Source: Hallerella succinigenes (GTDB lineage: Bacteria; Fibrobacterota; Fibrobacteria; Fibrobacterales; Fibrobacteraceae). From it: a stretch of DNA of 64,000 nt. Numbering within the stretch: position 1 is the stretch's first letter; every line of letters starts with the position of its first letter. The stretch lies in contig NZ_PGEX01000001.1 of the NCBI RefSeq assembly GCF_002797675.1, forward strand, positions 868,001 to 932,000, read 5' to 3'. A model generated the notes under the pieces. The model ran no database searches, was not told the DNA's origin, and saw only the letters and a program-made list of their open reading frames with translations. Positions 6,982 to 20,724 of this stretch are shown in pieces. The position numbers and the translations under genes are program-made.

Positions 6982-7002
6982 TTCCTACTATTTTTATAGG
7001 AA
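6982..7002. promoter_or_regulatory. Candidate LysR-regulator operator upstream of adh-cysK
   Basis: The palindrome TTCCTA-N9-TAGGAA shares the core CCTA-N9-TAGG with the palindrome at the LysR gene's own promoter and with the one upstream of metY. It lies about 50 bp before the dehydrogenase start. Function is inferred from recurrence and position only. Confidence 0.5.
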
Positions 7003-15526: not shown

Positions 15527-16438
15527 CTAGACATACAGGCCCTTGCTAAAGTAACGATCTCCGCGGTCGGGTGCCACAAAGACAATGTTTCCCCGGGCGC
15601 CCGCTGCAATCAACTTCTTTGCAGCAGCAAAGGCCGCACCGGAAGAAGAACCGGCGATAATCCCTTCTTTCTGGGCAAGTTCACGGGCCCCGCCAAAGGC
15701 ATCCTCGTCATTAATTTTGATAACCCGGTCCACCAGCGAAATATCCATGGTATCGGCTATGAAATCGTTTCCGATTCCTTCGATATTGTAATCGCCATGT
15801 TCGCCGCCACCTATGGTAGAGCCCACGGGATCGGCAAGCACACCCTGGATTTTCGGATTCTTTTCCTTGAGGTAGTGGAGGATTCCAGAATAAGTTCCGC
15901 CGCTCCCTGCACCCGCCACCACATAGTTGACATGGCCATCCAAATCCTTATAGATTTCAGGTCCCGTGGTTTCGTAATGGGCGCGGGGATTCGCCGGATT
16001 GCGGAACTGGCGCAGCGAAACCGCACCGGGAATCGTCTTCAAAAGCTCTTCCGCTTTCTTTTCAGCTCCCAGCATGCCCTCTTCACGAGGTGTGTTGATG
16101 AGTTCTGCACCCAGAGCCCGCAAAAGAATCTGCTTTTCCTGGGAGAACTTATTCGGTACCACGAAAATCACCCGCAGGCCACGATTCAGGGCGGCAAAGG
16201 CAATTCCAAGTCCCGTATTTCCCGCCGTCGCTTCGATAATGGTTCCGCCCGGTTTCAGCGATCCCTCTTCCAAGGCAGCATTGACCATGTAAAGGCCCGT
16301 GCGATCCTTGACGCTTCCCGACGGATTCCACAGTTCCAGTTTCGCGAAAAGTTTTACACCTTCAGGGACACCGACATGAGAAAGCCTTACCAGCGGAGTA
16401 TGGCCAATCAAGGCCTGCATGGATTCATAGTAGTGCAT
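15527..16438 (-). CDS. PLP-dependent cysteine synthase/cystathionine beta-synthase-like (MccA/CysK type)
   Basis: The start is placed at ATG 16438 because GGAGGG lies 9 nt upstream; the TTG two codons earlier is too close to it. The result is 303 residues. The PLP lysine is Lys44 (NPSGSVKDRTGLY), with EATAGNTGLG and GAGSGGTYSG loops. Next to an mccB-like gene, it is most likely an O-acetylserine-dependent cystathionine beta-synthase for reverse transsulfuration. A second O-acetylserine sulfhydrylase or another beta-replacement enzyme is possible. The gap to the mccB-like gene is 14 bp. Confidence 0.82.
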   Translation of the reverse strand: MHYYESMQALIGHTPLVRLSHVGVPEGVKLFAKLELWNPSGSVKDRTGLYMVNAALEEGSLKPGGTIIEATAGNTGLGIAFAALNRGLRVIFVVPNKFSQEKQILLRALGAELINTPREEGMLGAEKKAEELLKTIPGAVSLRQFRNPANPRAHYETTGPEIYKDLDGHVNYVVAGAGSGGTYSGILHYLKEKNPKIQGVLADPVGSTIGGGEHGDYNIEGIGNDFIADTMDISLVDRVIKINDEDAFGGARELAQKEGIIAGSSSGAAFAAAKKLIAAGARGNIVFVAPDRGDRYFSKGLYV

Positions 16439-16452
16439 ATCCAAATACCCTC

Positions 16453-17610
16453 CTACGTGAGTGAGGCTTGGATGCCCGAGTTCAAGTCTAGAATGAGGTC
16501 GTCCACCTTTTCAATGCCCACCGAGAGGCGAATCAGACCGTCGGTAATGCCCACCTTCTCGCGAATTTCCTTGGGTATCGACGCATGCGTCATGGTAGCC
16601 GGATGGCACACGAGACTTTCAACGCCTCCCAAACTTTCTGCCAGCGAAATCAGTTTCAGGCCCTTGAAAAATTTCCGGACATCGTAATTTCCATTCAGTT
16701 CAAAGGAAATCATGGCACCGCCATTTTTCGCCTGCCGCTTGTTGATTTCGTAGCCCTGAGCCGTCGGGAGCCCCGGATAATAGACCTTCTTGACTGCCTC
16801 CGCAGTTTCCAGATAGCGCGCGATGCGAAGCGCATTTTCTGTATGACGATCCAGGCGAACGCCCAAGGTCTTGATTCCCTGAATCAACAGGAAGGAATCA
16901 AAGGGACCCAGGACCGCACCGACCGCATTCTGCGCAAAAGCCAAGCGGTCGGCAAGTTCCTTGTTGCTTGTCACCGCAAGGCCCGCCACAAGATTGCTGT
17001 GACCGCCCAGATACTTGGTAGCGCTATGCACCACGATATCGGCACCCAATTCCAGCGGTCGCTGCAAGTAGGGAGTCATGAATGTGTTGTCCACAATCGT
17101 CAAAAGGCCATGGTTTTTCGCAATCTGTGCAACCGCCGAAAGGTCCGTTACTGTCAAAAGCGGGTTCGCAGGGCTTTCCACAAAAAAGGCCTTCACATCC
17201 GGCGTAATCTTTGTTTCCAAGGTCTCCAGGTTCGTCGTATCTTCAATGGAATAGTGAATACCCAGATTCTTGAAGACCTTATCCAAGACGCGGAATGTTC
17301 CGCCATACACATTGCTCGAAATAATAAGGCGGTCACCCGCCTTAAAAAGAGAAAGCACTGTAGATGTGGCAGCCATGCCGCTTGCAAAGGCAAAACCCGC
17401 AACGCCCCCTTCAAGCTCTGCAATCAAGGCTTCCAAAGCGGCACGCGTCGGATTCCCGGTACGGGAATATTCCCAGCCCGTATTTTCGCCAAGCCCCGCC
17501 TGCCTGTAAGTAGACGTCTGGTAAATAGGAACGTTCACGGCTCCTGTCGCCTGATCGCCGTCAACGCCCCCGAGGATAAGCTTCGTCTCGATAAATTTTG
17601 AAATGAACAT
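16453..17610 (-). CDS. Cystathionine gamma-lyase/gamma-synthase family PLP enzyme (MccB/MetB-like)
   Basis: The protein has 385 residues. The PLP lysine is Lys199 in HSATKYLGGHSNLVAG; YSRTGNPTR and the SLGGVESLVCHPA block are present. It forms or breaks the C-gamma-S bond of cystathionine or homocysteine. Its place between metY and the mccA-like gene favours cystathionine gamma-lyase, but gamma-synthase activity cannot be excluded from sequence alone. AGAGAGG precedes the ATG, and the gap to metY is 26 bp. Confidence 0.88.
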   Translation of the reverse strand: MFISKFIETKLILGGVDGDQATGAVNVPIYQTSTYRQAGLGENTGWEYSRTGNPTRAALEALIAELEGGVAGFAFASGMAATSTVLSLFKAGDRLIISSNVYGGTFRVLDKVFKNLGIHYSIEDTTNLETLETKITPDVKAFFVESPANPLLTVTDLSAVAQIAKNHGLLTIVDNTFMTPYLQRPLELGADIVVHSATKYLGGHSNLVAGLAVTSNKELADRLAFAQNAVGAVLGPFDSFLLIQGIKTLGVRLDRHTENALRIARYLETAEAVKKVYYPGLPTAQGYEINKRQAKNGGAMISFELNGNYDVRKFFKGLKLISLAESLGGVESLVCHPATMTHASIPKEIREKVGITDGLIRLSVGIEKVDDLILDLNSGIQASLT

Positions 17611-17636: not shown

Positions 17637-18923
17637 CTAGATAGCGGCAAAACCGTTTTCCAGGTCGGCGATAATATCTTCATAGTGCTCCGTACCGATA
17701 GAGACACGGATTGTCGCCGGAGTGATATTGGCAGCGGCCAATTCTTCTGGAGTCAGTTCCGCATGGGTCGTCGTGTACGGGTGAACCACCAGGCTCTTCA
17801 CGTCGGCCACGTTGGCAAGCAAGCTAAAGATCTTCAGGTTGTCAATGAACTTAAAGGCTTCTTCCTGACCACCCTTGATGTCGAAGGTAAAGATGGAACC
17901 ACCGCCATTGGGGAAATACTTCTGGTACAGTTCGTGGTCCGGATGGTTCGGCAGGCTCGGGTGATTCACGCGGGAAACCTTCGGGTGCTTGGTGAGATAA
18001 TCCAGAACTTTTTTGGTATTTTCCACATGACGATCCAGGCGCAGCGAGAGGGTTTCAGTCCCCTGCAACAGGAGGAAGGCATTGAAAGGAGAAATGGCAG
18101 CCCCTTCGTCACGGAGGAGAATGGTGCGGATATAAACCACATAGGCAGCAGCGCCCGCGGCCTTGGTAAAAGAGAGACCGTAGCTCTTGTTCACTTCGGT
18201 CAGATGGGGGAACTTACCCGAAGCTTCCCAGTCGAACTTGCCACTGTCCACAATCACGCCGCCGAGAGTCGTACCGTGACCGCCGATAAACTTCGTCGCG
18301 GAATGCACCACGATATCGGCACCATGTTCGATGGGACGAATCAAATACGGCGTTCCAAAGGTATTGTCTATGACCAGCGGAATCTTGTTCTTGTGGGCGA
18401 TTGCAGCAATCGCGTCGATATCCGGAATATCGGAATTCGGGTTACCGAGCGTTTCGATAAAGATGAGCTTTGTGTTTTCCTTGATAGCGCTTTCCACGTC
18501 CTTGAGGCTGTGGGTGTCCACGAAGGTCGTTTCAATACCGAAGTCGCGGAGCGTGTGCTGCAACAAGTTGAAGGTGCCACCGTAAACCGTACGCTGGGCC
18601 ACCACGTGATCGCCCTTATGGGCAAGAGCGGTAATCGCATAGGTAATTGCGGCTGCACCACTTGCAAGCGCAAGGCCCGCCACACCGCCTTCCAGCGCGG
18701 CAATACGCTGTTCCAAAACTCCCTGGGTCGTATTGGTAATGCGCCCGTAGACGTTACCCGCATCCTTCAAAGCAAAACGGTCTGCAGCATGCTGAGCATT
18801 GTGGAAAACGTAGGAAGTGGTCTGATAAATAGGAACGGCACGGGAATCGGTCGTGGGATCTGCGGTTTCCTGGCCAACGTGAATCTGGAGGGTTTCAAAA
18901 TGAAGTTTGTTCTGGGTCGTCAT
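17637..18923 (-). CDS. metY: O-acetylhomoserine sulfhydrylase
   Basis: The 428-residue PLP enzyme converts O-acetylhomoserine and sulfide to homocysteine. The PLP lysine is in [16 protein letters not shown], and the family insert [17 protein letters not shown], which separates MetY from the shorter MetB group, is present. YGRITNTTQ is the usual phosphate-contact region. AAAGGA lies 9 nt before the ATG. It is the first gene of the metY-mccB-mccA-ahpD-like run. A near-consensus promoter lies directly upstream, and a longer leader with a short ORF and hairpins extends toward the LysR gene. Confidence 0.92.
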
Positions 18924-18941
18924 GATAAGAATTCCTTTTAG

Positions 18942-18970
18942 ATTATAGCGGGCAACCGGTTTTTACTCAA
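18942..18970 (-). promoter_or_regulatory. Proximal promoter of metY
   Basis: On the minus strand -35 TTGAGT and -10 TATAAT are 17 nt apart. Transcription would begin about 12 nt before the metY ribosome binding site. The -35 overlaps a 7-bp hairpin (GGTTTTT/AAAAACC). Confidence 0.5.
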
Positions 18971-18999
18971 AAACCTAGGTCACTCCATTTTTTTTGAAA

Positions 19000-19059
19000 T
19001 GTCCTTTTAGCTCTTTTTTTTCTAGCGGGTGAGCCTTCAGGACAAAAGGCTCTGGCTAG
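19000..19059 (-). promoter_or_regulatory. Structured leader candidate: hairpin with possible pseudoknot upstream of metY
   Basis: On the minus strand, 19059-19022 folds as outer stem CTAGC/GCTAG and inner stem GAGCCTT/AAGGCTC with loop TTGTCCTG. Six loop bases (TGTCCT) are complementary to AGGACA at 19005-19000, with an A-rich linker between them. This is the layout of an H-type pseudoknot. It is not followed by a U-run, so it is not a plain terminator. I matched it to no known riboswitch class. Confidence 0.4.
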
Positions 19060-19109
19060 TTGAATTTCAAAATGCCTTTCGGCATTCGACAATCACTATC
19101 ACACATCAT
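19056..19109 (-). CDS. Possible Met/Cys-rich leader peptide upstream of metY
   Basis: This is a 17-codon ORF, MMCDSDCRMPKGILKFN, ending in TAG. It has a strong ribosome binding site (AAGGAG, 5 nt before ATG). Five of 17 residues are Met or Cys. A hairpin with a GAAA tetraloop (AATGCC/GGCATT, 19071-19086) lies inside it, and a second hairpin begins at its stop codon. The ORF lies between a candidate LysR operator and metY, so it could sense Met- or Cys-tRNA charging by ribosome stalling. Expression is unproven, and the proximal metY promoter would bypass it. Confidence 0.5.
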   Translation of the reverse strand: MMCDSDCRMPKGILKFN

Positions 19110-19149
19110 AGGCGCTCCTTCGAATGCTTAGGAAATCAAAAACATTTTC

Positions 19150-19176
19150 AATTACCTATCAATCTTGTAGGCTTTA
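19150..19176. promoter_or_regulatory. Candidate LysR-regulator operator upstream of the metY leader
   Basis: AATTACCTA-N9-TAGG at 19150-19171 has the same left arm, same 9-nt spacer and same core as the perfect palindrome at the LysR gene's own start; the outer right arm is degenerate. The site lies about 40 nt upstream of the leader ORF, a usual place for a LysR activator. Confidence 0.6.
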
Positions 19177-19258
19177 AGATAGAATAAGATCGGGCAGAAT
19201 GCAATAGATAGTTCTATACTATATTCTTTTAGCCAGCAATAGATTTTAACTATAATAC

Positions 19259-20185
19259 TCAGGATTTGACGTTATCCAAATAATCCTTCAAGCATTCTAC
19301 ATAACGTTCGCCGACCATTCCCAAAAGCATATTCCGTTTGCAAACGTATCCGATTTCCATCACACAACGCGCTTCATCGCTTTTATCCTTGAAAGGAACC
19401 GCCCGAAAGTCGTCCCCATTCAATTCTTCGCAAATGATACCCGAGCAAAGCGTATAGCCGTTCAATCCAATCATCAAGTTCAACATCGTCGCTCGGTCGT
19501 TGGCTTTGATCGTCCGCTTATATTCATTGGTACTTAAAATTTCTTCCGCAAAGTAAAAAGATCCATCATCCCCCTGTTCAAAAGAAAGGCACGGAAAATC
19601 GTCCAACTGCTTTAGCGTAATAAACTTGTTATTTGCCAAGGGATGCTCCTTCCGCAAATAAACATAAGCCTTGCAATCTATCAACTTATGAAATTCGAGG
19701 TCTCGAGCCTCTAGTAAATTCGCAATGACTTTCCGATTGAAATCGCTCAGGTAAAGAATTCCAATATCGCTTTTGAACGAAGCGACGTCTTCAATGACTT
19801 CCTTTGTACGCGTTTCTCGAATAGCAAAATCATACTTTTCCGTATCGAACTGCTTTACCGTTTCCACAAAGCTTTTCACCGCAAAAGAATAGTGCTGCGT
19901 CGAAACGCCAAACTTCTTTTTGCGCTTGCCGATTTTGCCATACTTTTCAAGAACCGATTCATAATGTTCCATCAGTTCGCGGGAATATGCAATGAACTCC
20001 TCTCCTTCACTCGTCAGCGTAACACCGCGACTTGTTCGGTTAAAAATCAGAATATTCAGTTCATCTTCCAGATCCCGGATTGCCGCCGTCAAAGATGGCT
20101 GGGAAACATAGAGTTTTTCTGTCGCCTTGTTAAAAGATCCGGTTTCCGCAATTCCGACCGCATAACGTAACTGTTGAAGAGTCAT
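19259..20185 (-). CDS. LysR-family transcriptional regulator
   Basis: The protein has 308 residues. The N-terminal winged helix-turn-helix (MTLQQLRYAVGIAETGSFNKA, then YVSQPSLTAAIRDLEDELN) is followed by the two-lobe effector domain. It lies just upstream of the metY leader and divergent from an Rrf2 gene, so a role in sulfur amino acid control similar to CysB, CmbR or YtlI is likely. A perfect 11-bp-arm palindrome overlaps its start codon and -10 element, which points to autoregulation. Palindromes with the same core lie upstream of metY and adh-cysK. The effector might be O-acetylserine or a related metabolite; this is inference. Confidence 0.92.
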   Translation of the reverse strand: MTLQQLRYAVGIAETGSFNKATEKLYVSQPSLTAAIRDLEDELNILIFNRTSRGVTLTSEGEEFIAYSRELMEHYESVLEKYGKIGKRKKKFGVSTQHYSFAVKSFVETVKQFDTEKYDFAIRETRTKEVIEDVASFKSDIGILYLSDFNRKVIANLLEARDLEFHKLIDCKAYVYLRKEHPLANNKFITLKQLDDFPCLSFEQGDDGSFYFAEEILSTNEYKRTIKANDRATMLNLMIGLNGYTLCSGIICEELNGDDFRAVPFKDKSDEARCVMEIGYVCKRNMLLGMVGERYVECLKDYLDNVKS

Positions 20186-20214
20186 AATTACCTACCATTT
20201 GCATAGGTAATTAT
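20184..20214. promoter_or_regulatory. Perfect palindrome at the LysR gene start, probable autoregulatory operator
   Basis: ATAATTACCTA and TAGGTAATTAT form 11-bp perfect arms with a 9-nt spacer. The site covers the start codon and ribosome binding region of the LysR gene. Its right arm overlaps a -10 hexamer, so binding should block transcription. Confidence 0.7.
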
Positions 20215-20274: not shown

Positions 20275-20290
20275 TATTACATTTGTAATA
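20275..20290. promoter_or_regulatory. Inverted repeat abutting the Rrf2 gene start
   Basis: TATTAC-ATTT-GTAATA ends on the first base of the Rrf2 start codon. No ribosome binding site is visible. It could be the regulator's own operator. Confidence 0.35.
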
Positions 20291-20724
20291 TGATTGTATC
20301 CACCAAAGGTCGCTACGCGTTGCGGGTCATGACAGATCTTGCCCAACAGCACAACGACGAATTCATTCCTCTCAAAGACATCGTCACGCGTCAAGGCATT
20401 TCCCAAAAATACGCAGAAGCCATTATGGCGCTGCTTTCCAAAGCAGGGCTGATCGAAGCGACCCGAGGAAAGACAGGTGGATATAGGCTGAACAGAGCTC
20501 CTAAAGATTACATGGTCGGTGAAATTTTACGTGCAACAGAAGGAACGCTCGCCCCTGTCGCCTGCCTTGAAGACGACGCCGTTCCTTGCGCGCACTCCAA
20601 AGTTTGCACGACGCTCCCCCTTTGGACCGAGCTGAATCAAATCGTCACCTCCTTTCTCGACAGCATTTCGTTAGAAGATCTAACGCATAAGCGTATCAAG
20701 TCGAAAGCCGCAACTTCGAAATAA
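20290..20724 (+). CDS. Rrf2-family transcriptional regulator (IscR/CymR-like)
   Basis: The protein has 144 residues. The N-terminal winged helix is MIVSTKGRYALRVMTDLAQQ, with the wing motif GGYRLNRAP. Cys92, Cys100 and Cys106 sit in the region where IscR binds its 2Fe-2S cluster, with slightly wider spacing, so a cluster-sensing role is plausible. Other Rrf2 proteins such as CymR control cysteine synthesis, and the divergent LysR and metY genes make that role equally possible. It has its own terminator and is probably monocistronic. Confidence 0.88.
   Translation: MIVSTKGRYALRVMTDLAQQHNDEFIPLKDIVTRQGISQKYAEAIMALLSKAGLIEATRGKTGGYRLNRAPKDYMVGEILRATEGTLAPVACLEDDAVPCAHSKVCTTLPLWTELNQIVTSFLDSISLEDLTHKRIKSKAATSK

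Follow-up and report, generated by a model that had tools for sequence, protein, structure and literature searches.

What kind of device lies between the promoter of the metY sulfur-assimilation operon and its first gene, and does it read a metabolite, a nascent peptide or the position of a ribosome? In the window, i.e. the whole stretch of 64,000 nucleotides analysed here, the leader is encoded on the minus strand, with a gene for a LysR-family regulator (19259-20185, minus strand; PF00126 and PF03466) on one side and metY (17637-18923, minus strand) on the other. The metY product, O-acetylhomoserine sulfhydrylase, scored 606 bits against TIGR01326, above the cut-off, which bears out the original prediction that the leader precedes metY, the first gene controlled. 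Downstream in the operon, on the same strand, are genes for a Cys/Met-metabolism PLP enzyme of the cystathionine gamma-synthase/lyase type (16453-17610; PF01053) and for a CysK-like cysteine synthase (15527-16444; TIGR01136 and TIGR01139 just under cut-off). The element spans about 19171 to 18924 and is larger than the 19000-19109 region first proposed. Leader-peptide control usually relies on runs of regulatory codons or on long arrest peptides. We hold, at slightly better than even confidence, that the metY leader works like a leader-peptide attenuator that does without repeated regulatory codons and without an intrinsic terminator, both of them textbook features.

Promoters and a palindrome at the predicted start site

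The leader is preceded by a promoter (19176-19204, minus strand) with the -35 sequence TTGCAT (19204-19199), a 17-nt spacer and the -10 sequence TATCTT (19181-19176), which predicts a transcription start at about 19171-19169. The pattern TTG..-N17-TATYTT was matched upstream of 36 of the 38 homologous leaders. The original prediction had cautioned that a near-consensus promoter closer to metY would give transcripts lacking the leader. Such a sequence (TTGAGT-17-TATAAT) is real in the window, but the caution fails in relatives, as the window itself is the only one of the 38 homologous leaders to contain it.

At the predicted start site lies the palindrome CCTACAAGATTGATAGG (19155-19171), a candidate operator of an Rrf2/CymR-like regulator. 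The palindrome CCTAYNNNNNNNRTAGG occurs three times in the window (6984-7000, 19155-19171 and 20191-20207), with 0.04 occurrences expected. The form CCTAY-N7-RTAGG recurs between the LysR gene and the neighbouring gene for an Rrf2-family (IscR/CymR-like) regulator (20290-20724, plus strand; PF02082), which scored 101 bits for the CymR equivalog against a cut-off of 195, and the relaxed form CCTAY-N7-RTRGG was found in 61 of the 66 metY upstream regions. Judging from these positions, the palindrome is likely an operator of this CymR/IscR-like (Rrf2-family) regulator, in a sulfur regulon, and likely provides a second layer of control independent of the leader.

A conserved short ORF in the class I leader

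Searching with a degenerate CRMPxGI core pattern and then with a covariance model of 123 positions, we found this leader type (class I) in 36 Fibrobacteraceae genomes: three of the six of the window's own genus and 33 of one other genus (contigs labelled Fibrobacter). In the window, as originally predicted, its minus strand carries a 17-codon ORF, MMCDSDCRMPKGILKFN, from the ATG at 19109 to the TAG at 19056, preceded by a well-placed Shine-Dalgarno (SD) sequence AAGGAG (19120-19115) that is separated from the ATG by 5 nt. All 17 distinct homologous ORFs retain the SD, the start and the stop (TAG or TAA), and AAGGAG is unchanged in all class I leaders except for one A>G in G102. The ORFs differ by an in-frame 6-nt length change and by mostly conservative D/E, K/R and I/V/M/S substitutions, around a nearly invariant family core, [DE]-C-R-M-P-[RKE]-G. 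The R/K/E position of this core coincides with a GNRA loop (GAGA, GAAA, GCGA or GGAA), and because the core is also under RNA constraint, class I taken by itself offers moderate evidence at the codon level.

The five Met/Cys codons emphasized in the original prediction are present in the window, start codon included, but such abundance is shared with its closest relative alone and is not a family trait. In most homologues there is a single Cys codon and a single internal Met codon, which argues against Met/Cys richness as the sensor. The codon pair CGA-AUG (Arg-Met; 19083-19088, minus strand), by comparison, was found in 17 of 17 class I ORFs.

Structured RNA of the leader

None of 200 dinucleotide shuffles folds as well as the 206-nt leader itself (z -3.05). 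The alignment and folding indicated a first hairpin on the minus strand, P0 (AGGTAAT...ATTTCCT; 19130-19157), which is dispensable, as one homologous leader (L087) is without it. Segment 1, GCATTCGA (19120-19127, minus strand), is the complement of segment 2, TCGAATGC (19082-19089, minus strand), and encloses with it the SD and start codon of the ORF; it is invariant but for one mismatch in two leaders (L063 and L076). Segment 2 can also pair, as GAATGCC, with segment 3 (GGCATT), so that TCGAATGCC has two possible partners, one upstream and one downstream. The latter pairing gives the hairpin AATGCC-GAAA-GGCATT within the ORF (19086-19071, minus strand), paired in 98.8% of cells of the alignment and closed by a GNRA loop throughout the relatives.

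A two-part hairpin, P1 (19059-19022, minus strand), begins at the stop codon and consists of P1a (CTAGC/GCTAG) and P1b (GAGCCTTT/GAAGGCTC). Its pairing holds in 98.4% of cells and is destroyed when the partners are slid; two-sided changes occur in four pairs and in 14 cells, where shuffles average 1.9. The P1 loop UGUCCU (19044-19039, minus strand) is complementary to the tail AGGACA (19005-19000, minus strand), giving the 5' and 3' strands of a pseudoknot. Loop and tail are paired in 95.8% of cells, and the outer position appears as G-U, G-C and A-U across relatives. This complementarity reaches significance for the window (p 0.019) and for a divergent copy (p 0.001), and is unsupported in G004 (p 0.67). 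The linker between P1 and the tail contains GAGC (19010-19013, minus strand; AAGCC in most relatives), which matches the P1b 5' arm and could take its place opposite the 3' arm of P1b, forming an alternative helix. Because the linker both repeats this arm and tracks it across sequences (GAGC(C/U) with GGCTC, AAGCC with GGCTT), this alternative helix competes with P1. By sequence, therefore, the helices around the ORF are mutually exclusive: segments 1:2 versus 2:3, and P1 versus the linker pairing. A last hairpin, P4 (GGUUUUU-GAGU-AAAAACC; 18958-18975, minus strand), stands ahead of the metY SD and is kept in relatives with a different sequence. The three structural elements originally predicted, namely a GAAA-tetraloop hairpin inside the ORF, a two-part hairpin starting at its stop codon and a loop complementary to AGGACA downstream, were thus all recovered, and the alignment revealed compensatory changes in P1 as well as conservation of ORF and stems in the 36 genomes.

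The near-invariant inverted repeats (GCATTCGA, TCGAATGC and GGCATT), located just downstream of the promoter, could instead constitute a DNA operator, for example for the LysR or Rrf2 regulator. We give this explanation very little credence: the loop variation obeys the GNRA rule, changes in the ORF are coding-like, P1 covaries, and the separate palindrome at the start site, also present at the regulators' own promoter, fits an Rrf2 operator better.

Placed as it is ahead of a Met gene, the combination of P1 and loop-tail pairing also recalls a metabolite-binding H-type pseudoknot riboswitch of the SAM-II or SAM-V kind, for which the ORF would be incidental. The SAM-II riboswitch (RF01726), located at metA and metZ in S. 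meliloti (PMC9373788), likewise precedes Met genes and joins its hairpin loop to an SD-like tail further downstream. The covariance model gave a weak alignment with ..GAGCUAAAAGG, at 13.5 bits against a gathering cut-off of 44 (E 9), and no SAM-II was found over the cut-off in 168 genomes. The SAM-II core GCUAAA is present in the window only, as GAGCUAAAAGG, and is lost in relatives, most of which have AAGCCUAAGG or AAGCCGAAAGG; the P1 sequence varies freely; and other Fibrobacter metY leaders keep an Arg-Met ORF without the class I RNA and its pseudoknot. Unlike SAM-II, the metY leader thus fails the covariance model, lacks the conserved core and is joined to a conserved ORF. A riboswitch is accordingly quite improbable, and the suggestion in the original prediction that the pseudoknot is a riboswitch feature was not supported. 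Its remark that the leader matches no named class stood: Rfam gave no match over the gathering score for class I or the other metY leaders tested, NCBIfam gave none for the leader types tested, and nothing on such leaders was found in the open-access literature.

The CGA-AUG pair in other metY leaders

Fibrobacter genomes that lack the class I RNA have different metY leaders, as do second metY copies. An SD-preceded short ORF with an in-frame CGA-ATG was found in 38 of 66 such non-class-I upstream regions; since the leader sequences are related, these counts show constancy, not independent origins. Examples are MRCRMCNQAEGGRA, MKYRMCTLSEARGA, MSCRMCNRTEPSWKSQA, MSCESDCRMRVQA, MDFKTYLRNDRRCRAGFRMRG, MASIQINEHWRMRLEARSTTNR and MNFAIEYFEKLVRANFRFGRMCL, each ending at a stop codon, as does MKDRMCNPKGSRA from the window's own genus. 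When the other five Arg codons before ATG were put through this test on the 66 regions, CGG and AGG each scored once, and CGT, CGC and AGA never did; MFSVFYFEFLVRHNFRYGRMC is an Arg-Met leader ORF that uses CGG-ATG instead. No out-of-frame CGAATG was seen in the 66 regions, 27 of which lack such an Arg-Met ORF. Within the order, a sister family (G047) has a seven-codon ORF, MTDRMRD, whereas the upstream regions read at metY-like genes outside the order contained no CGA-AUG Arg-Met ORF. In the non-class-I leaders CGAAUG has no significant complement in cis, and its constraint therefore looks like one of decoding, not of pairing.

Compared across leader types, Arg-Met decoded as CGA-AUG is the common denominator and the downstream RNA device is not. 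A stop codon inside a hairpin was rejected as a uniting trait because it was not above dinucleotide shuffles. We propose tentatively, with somewhat less than even confidence, a Fibrobacterales-wide principle in which unrelated leader ORFs and folds sense sulfur amino-acid supply via one CGA-AUG pair, while the RNA device is exchanged freely between lineages.

A constant Arg-Met with varying flanks, and the near-invariant CRMP[RKE]G of class I, might also be explained by nascent-peptide arrest. On this view a metabolite (SAM, Met or Cys) would be bound by the ...CRM peptide within the exit tunnel and the ribosome would halt, as with TnaC or the CGS1 MTO1 region. In Arabidopsis, the MTO1 region of CGS1 causes SAM-dependent translation arrest (PMC8137854). 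In bacteria, the genes of the metY operon correspond to CGS1 metabolism, and both cases would involve translation-level control of a neighbouring metabolic step, cystathionine formation toward methionine, with no sequence relation seen. The CGS1 system, in contrast, is eukaryotic and lies inside the coding region, with SAM acting on the exit-tunnel peptide. At the motif of MTDRMRD, MRCRMC.. and MKVRMC.. the peptide would be only 4-5 residues long, no flanking residue is shared, and a pure peptide sensor would not need an Arg codon that is nearly always CGA. We consider arrest by the peptide unlikely.

Alternatively, the conserved UGU before CGA might sense Cys-tRNA, as in Cys-rich leader ORFs. 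Cys occurs in all class I ORFs and adjoins Arg-Met in many others, and the copies at cysK operons have two Cys codons. However, most leaders have only one Cys codon, MASIQINEHWRMRLEARSTTNR and MTDRMRD have none, and in MSCTSEDRMLVQA the Cys is distant, so that attenuation through cysteine codons seems improbable. The mycobacterial cysteine-responsive polycysteine sORFs (Canestrari et al. 2020, as cited in PMC9094748) resemble the metY leader, as far as that citing account describes them, in being short cysteine-related leader ORFs acting on an operon; according to the same account they are leaderless and poly-Cys, whereas the metY leader ORF is SD-led, has an Arg-Met core and often contains one Cys or none. 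The leader analysed here, with its SD and the one or two Cys codons of its class, does not belong to that group.

A model of ribosome-mediated attenuation

We regard the leader of the metY sulfur-assimilation operon as probably, by a narrow measure, a ribosome-mediated (leader-peptide) attenuator. This reading draws on the conservation of the leader, its in-frame ORF, the constancy of CGA-AUG, P1 covariation, loop-tail complementarity, mutually exclusive pairings, the upstream promoter and the genes controlled. The resemblance to peptide-based attenuation noted in the original prediction is borne out by the combination of ORF and structured RNA, conserved and with compensatory changes. Like trp/his-type transcription attenuators, the leader has a conserved SD-led short ORF, translatable by sequence, ahead of a biosynthetic operon, and mutually exclusive hairpins that ribosome position would choose between. 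It differs from them in having no run of regulatory codons and no intrinsic terminator, and in having a single CGA-AUG pair and a pseudoknot element. Instead of several codons for the regulating amino acid, most homologues carry one Cys and one internal Met, and by classical standards a single Arg with a single internal Met codon makes a weak signal for attenuation. There were no terminator-like (Rho-independent) sites in 18850-19320, and the output step may for this reason be Rho-dependent termination, mRNA stability, metY translation or an effect invisible to nested folding. A switch of metY SD access by ribosome position was rejected, since nested folds with blocked positions gave no consistent change.

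RNA from the promoter at 19204-19176 would carry the translated 17-codon ORF, and the decoding speed of CGA-AUG would set the ribosome position on the leader. Decoding would most likely be limited by methionyl-tRNA or by some other indicator of how well sulfur amino acids are supplied; the codon and the genes suggest that pausing is a response to methionine supply. In class I, 26 nt separate the AUG of the pair from P1, whose first arm contains the stop codon. This geometry and the usual ribosome footprint imply that P1 is free with a ribosome at the pair and melted with one at the stop. A ribosome held at the AUG (19085-19083) would melt the nested CGAAUGCC hairpins and stop about 10 nt short of P1, allowing P1 and the loop-tail pseudoknot to form. 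A ribosome reaching the UAG would cover the P1 5' arm, leaving the loop and the 3' arm free for the linker and tail (AAGCC..AAGGA). Expression of metY would be favoured in one of the two states, presumably that of the stalled ribosome during starvation. Translation of the leader, the signal sensed, the ON/OFF assignment and the output step are what we infer. The pseudoknot and strand-exchange RNA would be the read-out in the class I subclass, probably for methionine or cysteine supply.

The CGA-AUG leader peptide has the look of a ribosome-based switch, so far undescribed, that governs the synthesis of sulfur amino acids. If so, a single conserved codon pair, in an ORF of down to seven codons, would be a minimal sensor, and the Fibrobacterales, rumen fibre degraders, would gain post-initiation control of methionine and cysteine synthesis. 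The natural series of leaders, with the full RNA, with other RNAs and with deletions, provides material for studying the read-out of ribosome position.

Class I leaders at other genes and variant copies

Class I copies precede metY wherever the gene context was read (G143 lies outside this reading), apart from four genomes (G065, G110, G075 and G102) in which the leader precedes a short-chain dehydrogenase/cysteine synthase operon or a cysteine synthase gene. The copies in G075 and G102 have a stop hairpin of unrelated sequence, yet retain the loop GUCC and the tail AAGGAC. Among other cysK genes in 14 genomes, the leader was found only at the dehydrogenase-cysK operons. A contig scan with a pattern gap that excludes the metY type returned three Fibrobacter-type copies, the remaining matches being chance-like. 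In G065 and G110 (L123 and L124), an operon of dehydrogenase, cysteine synthase and a LanC-like (lanthionine-synthetase-like) protein (PF05147) stands under the same leader type, an apparent link of the LanC-like protein to sulfur metabolism.

One second metY leader (L122, G135:C17:115437 region) is a natural deletion variant, in which the ORF body and the P1 5' half are gone and the promoter, P0, SD/ATG and P1 3' half are still present. Genomes with two metY copies (L254 in G078:C141, and L240-L253) have one with the leader, the other often having a short or ORF-less upstream region. A leader nearly identical to the Fibrobacter G075 type (L144) occurs on JAKSMI010000013.1, titled Bacteroidales bacterium, which is probably a mislabelled or contaminating contig. 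In genus g4, the metY orthologues on G058:C85 and G059:C69 each contain one in-frame TAG.
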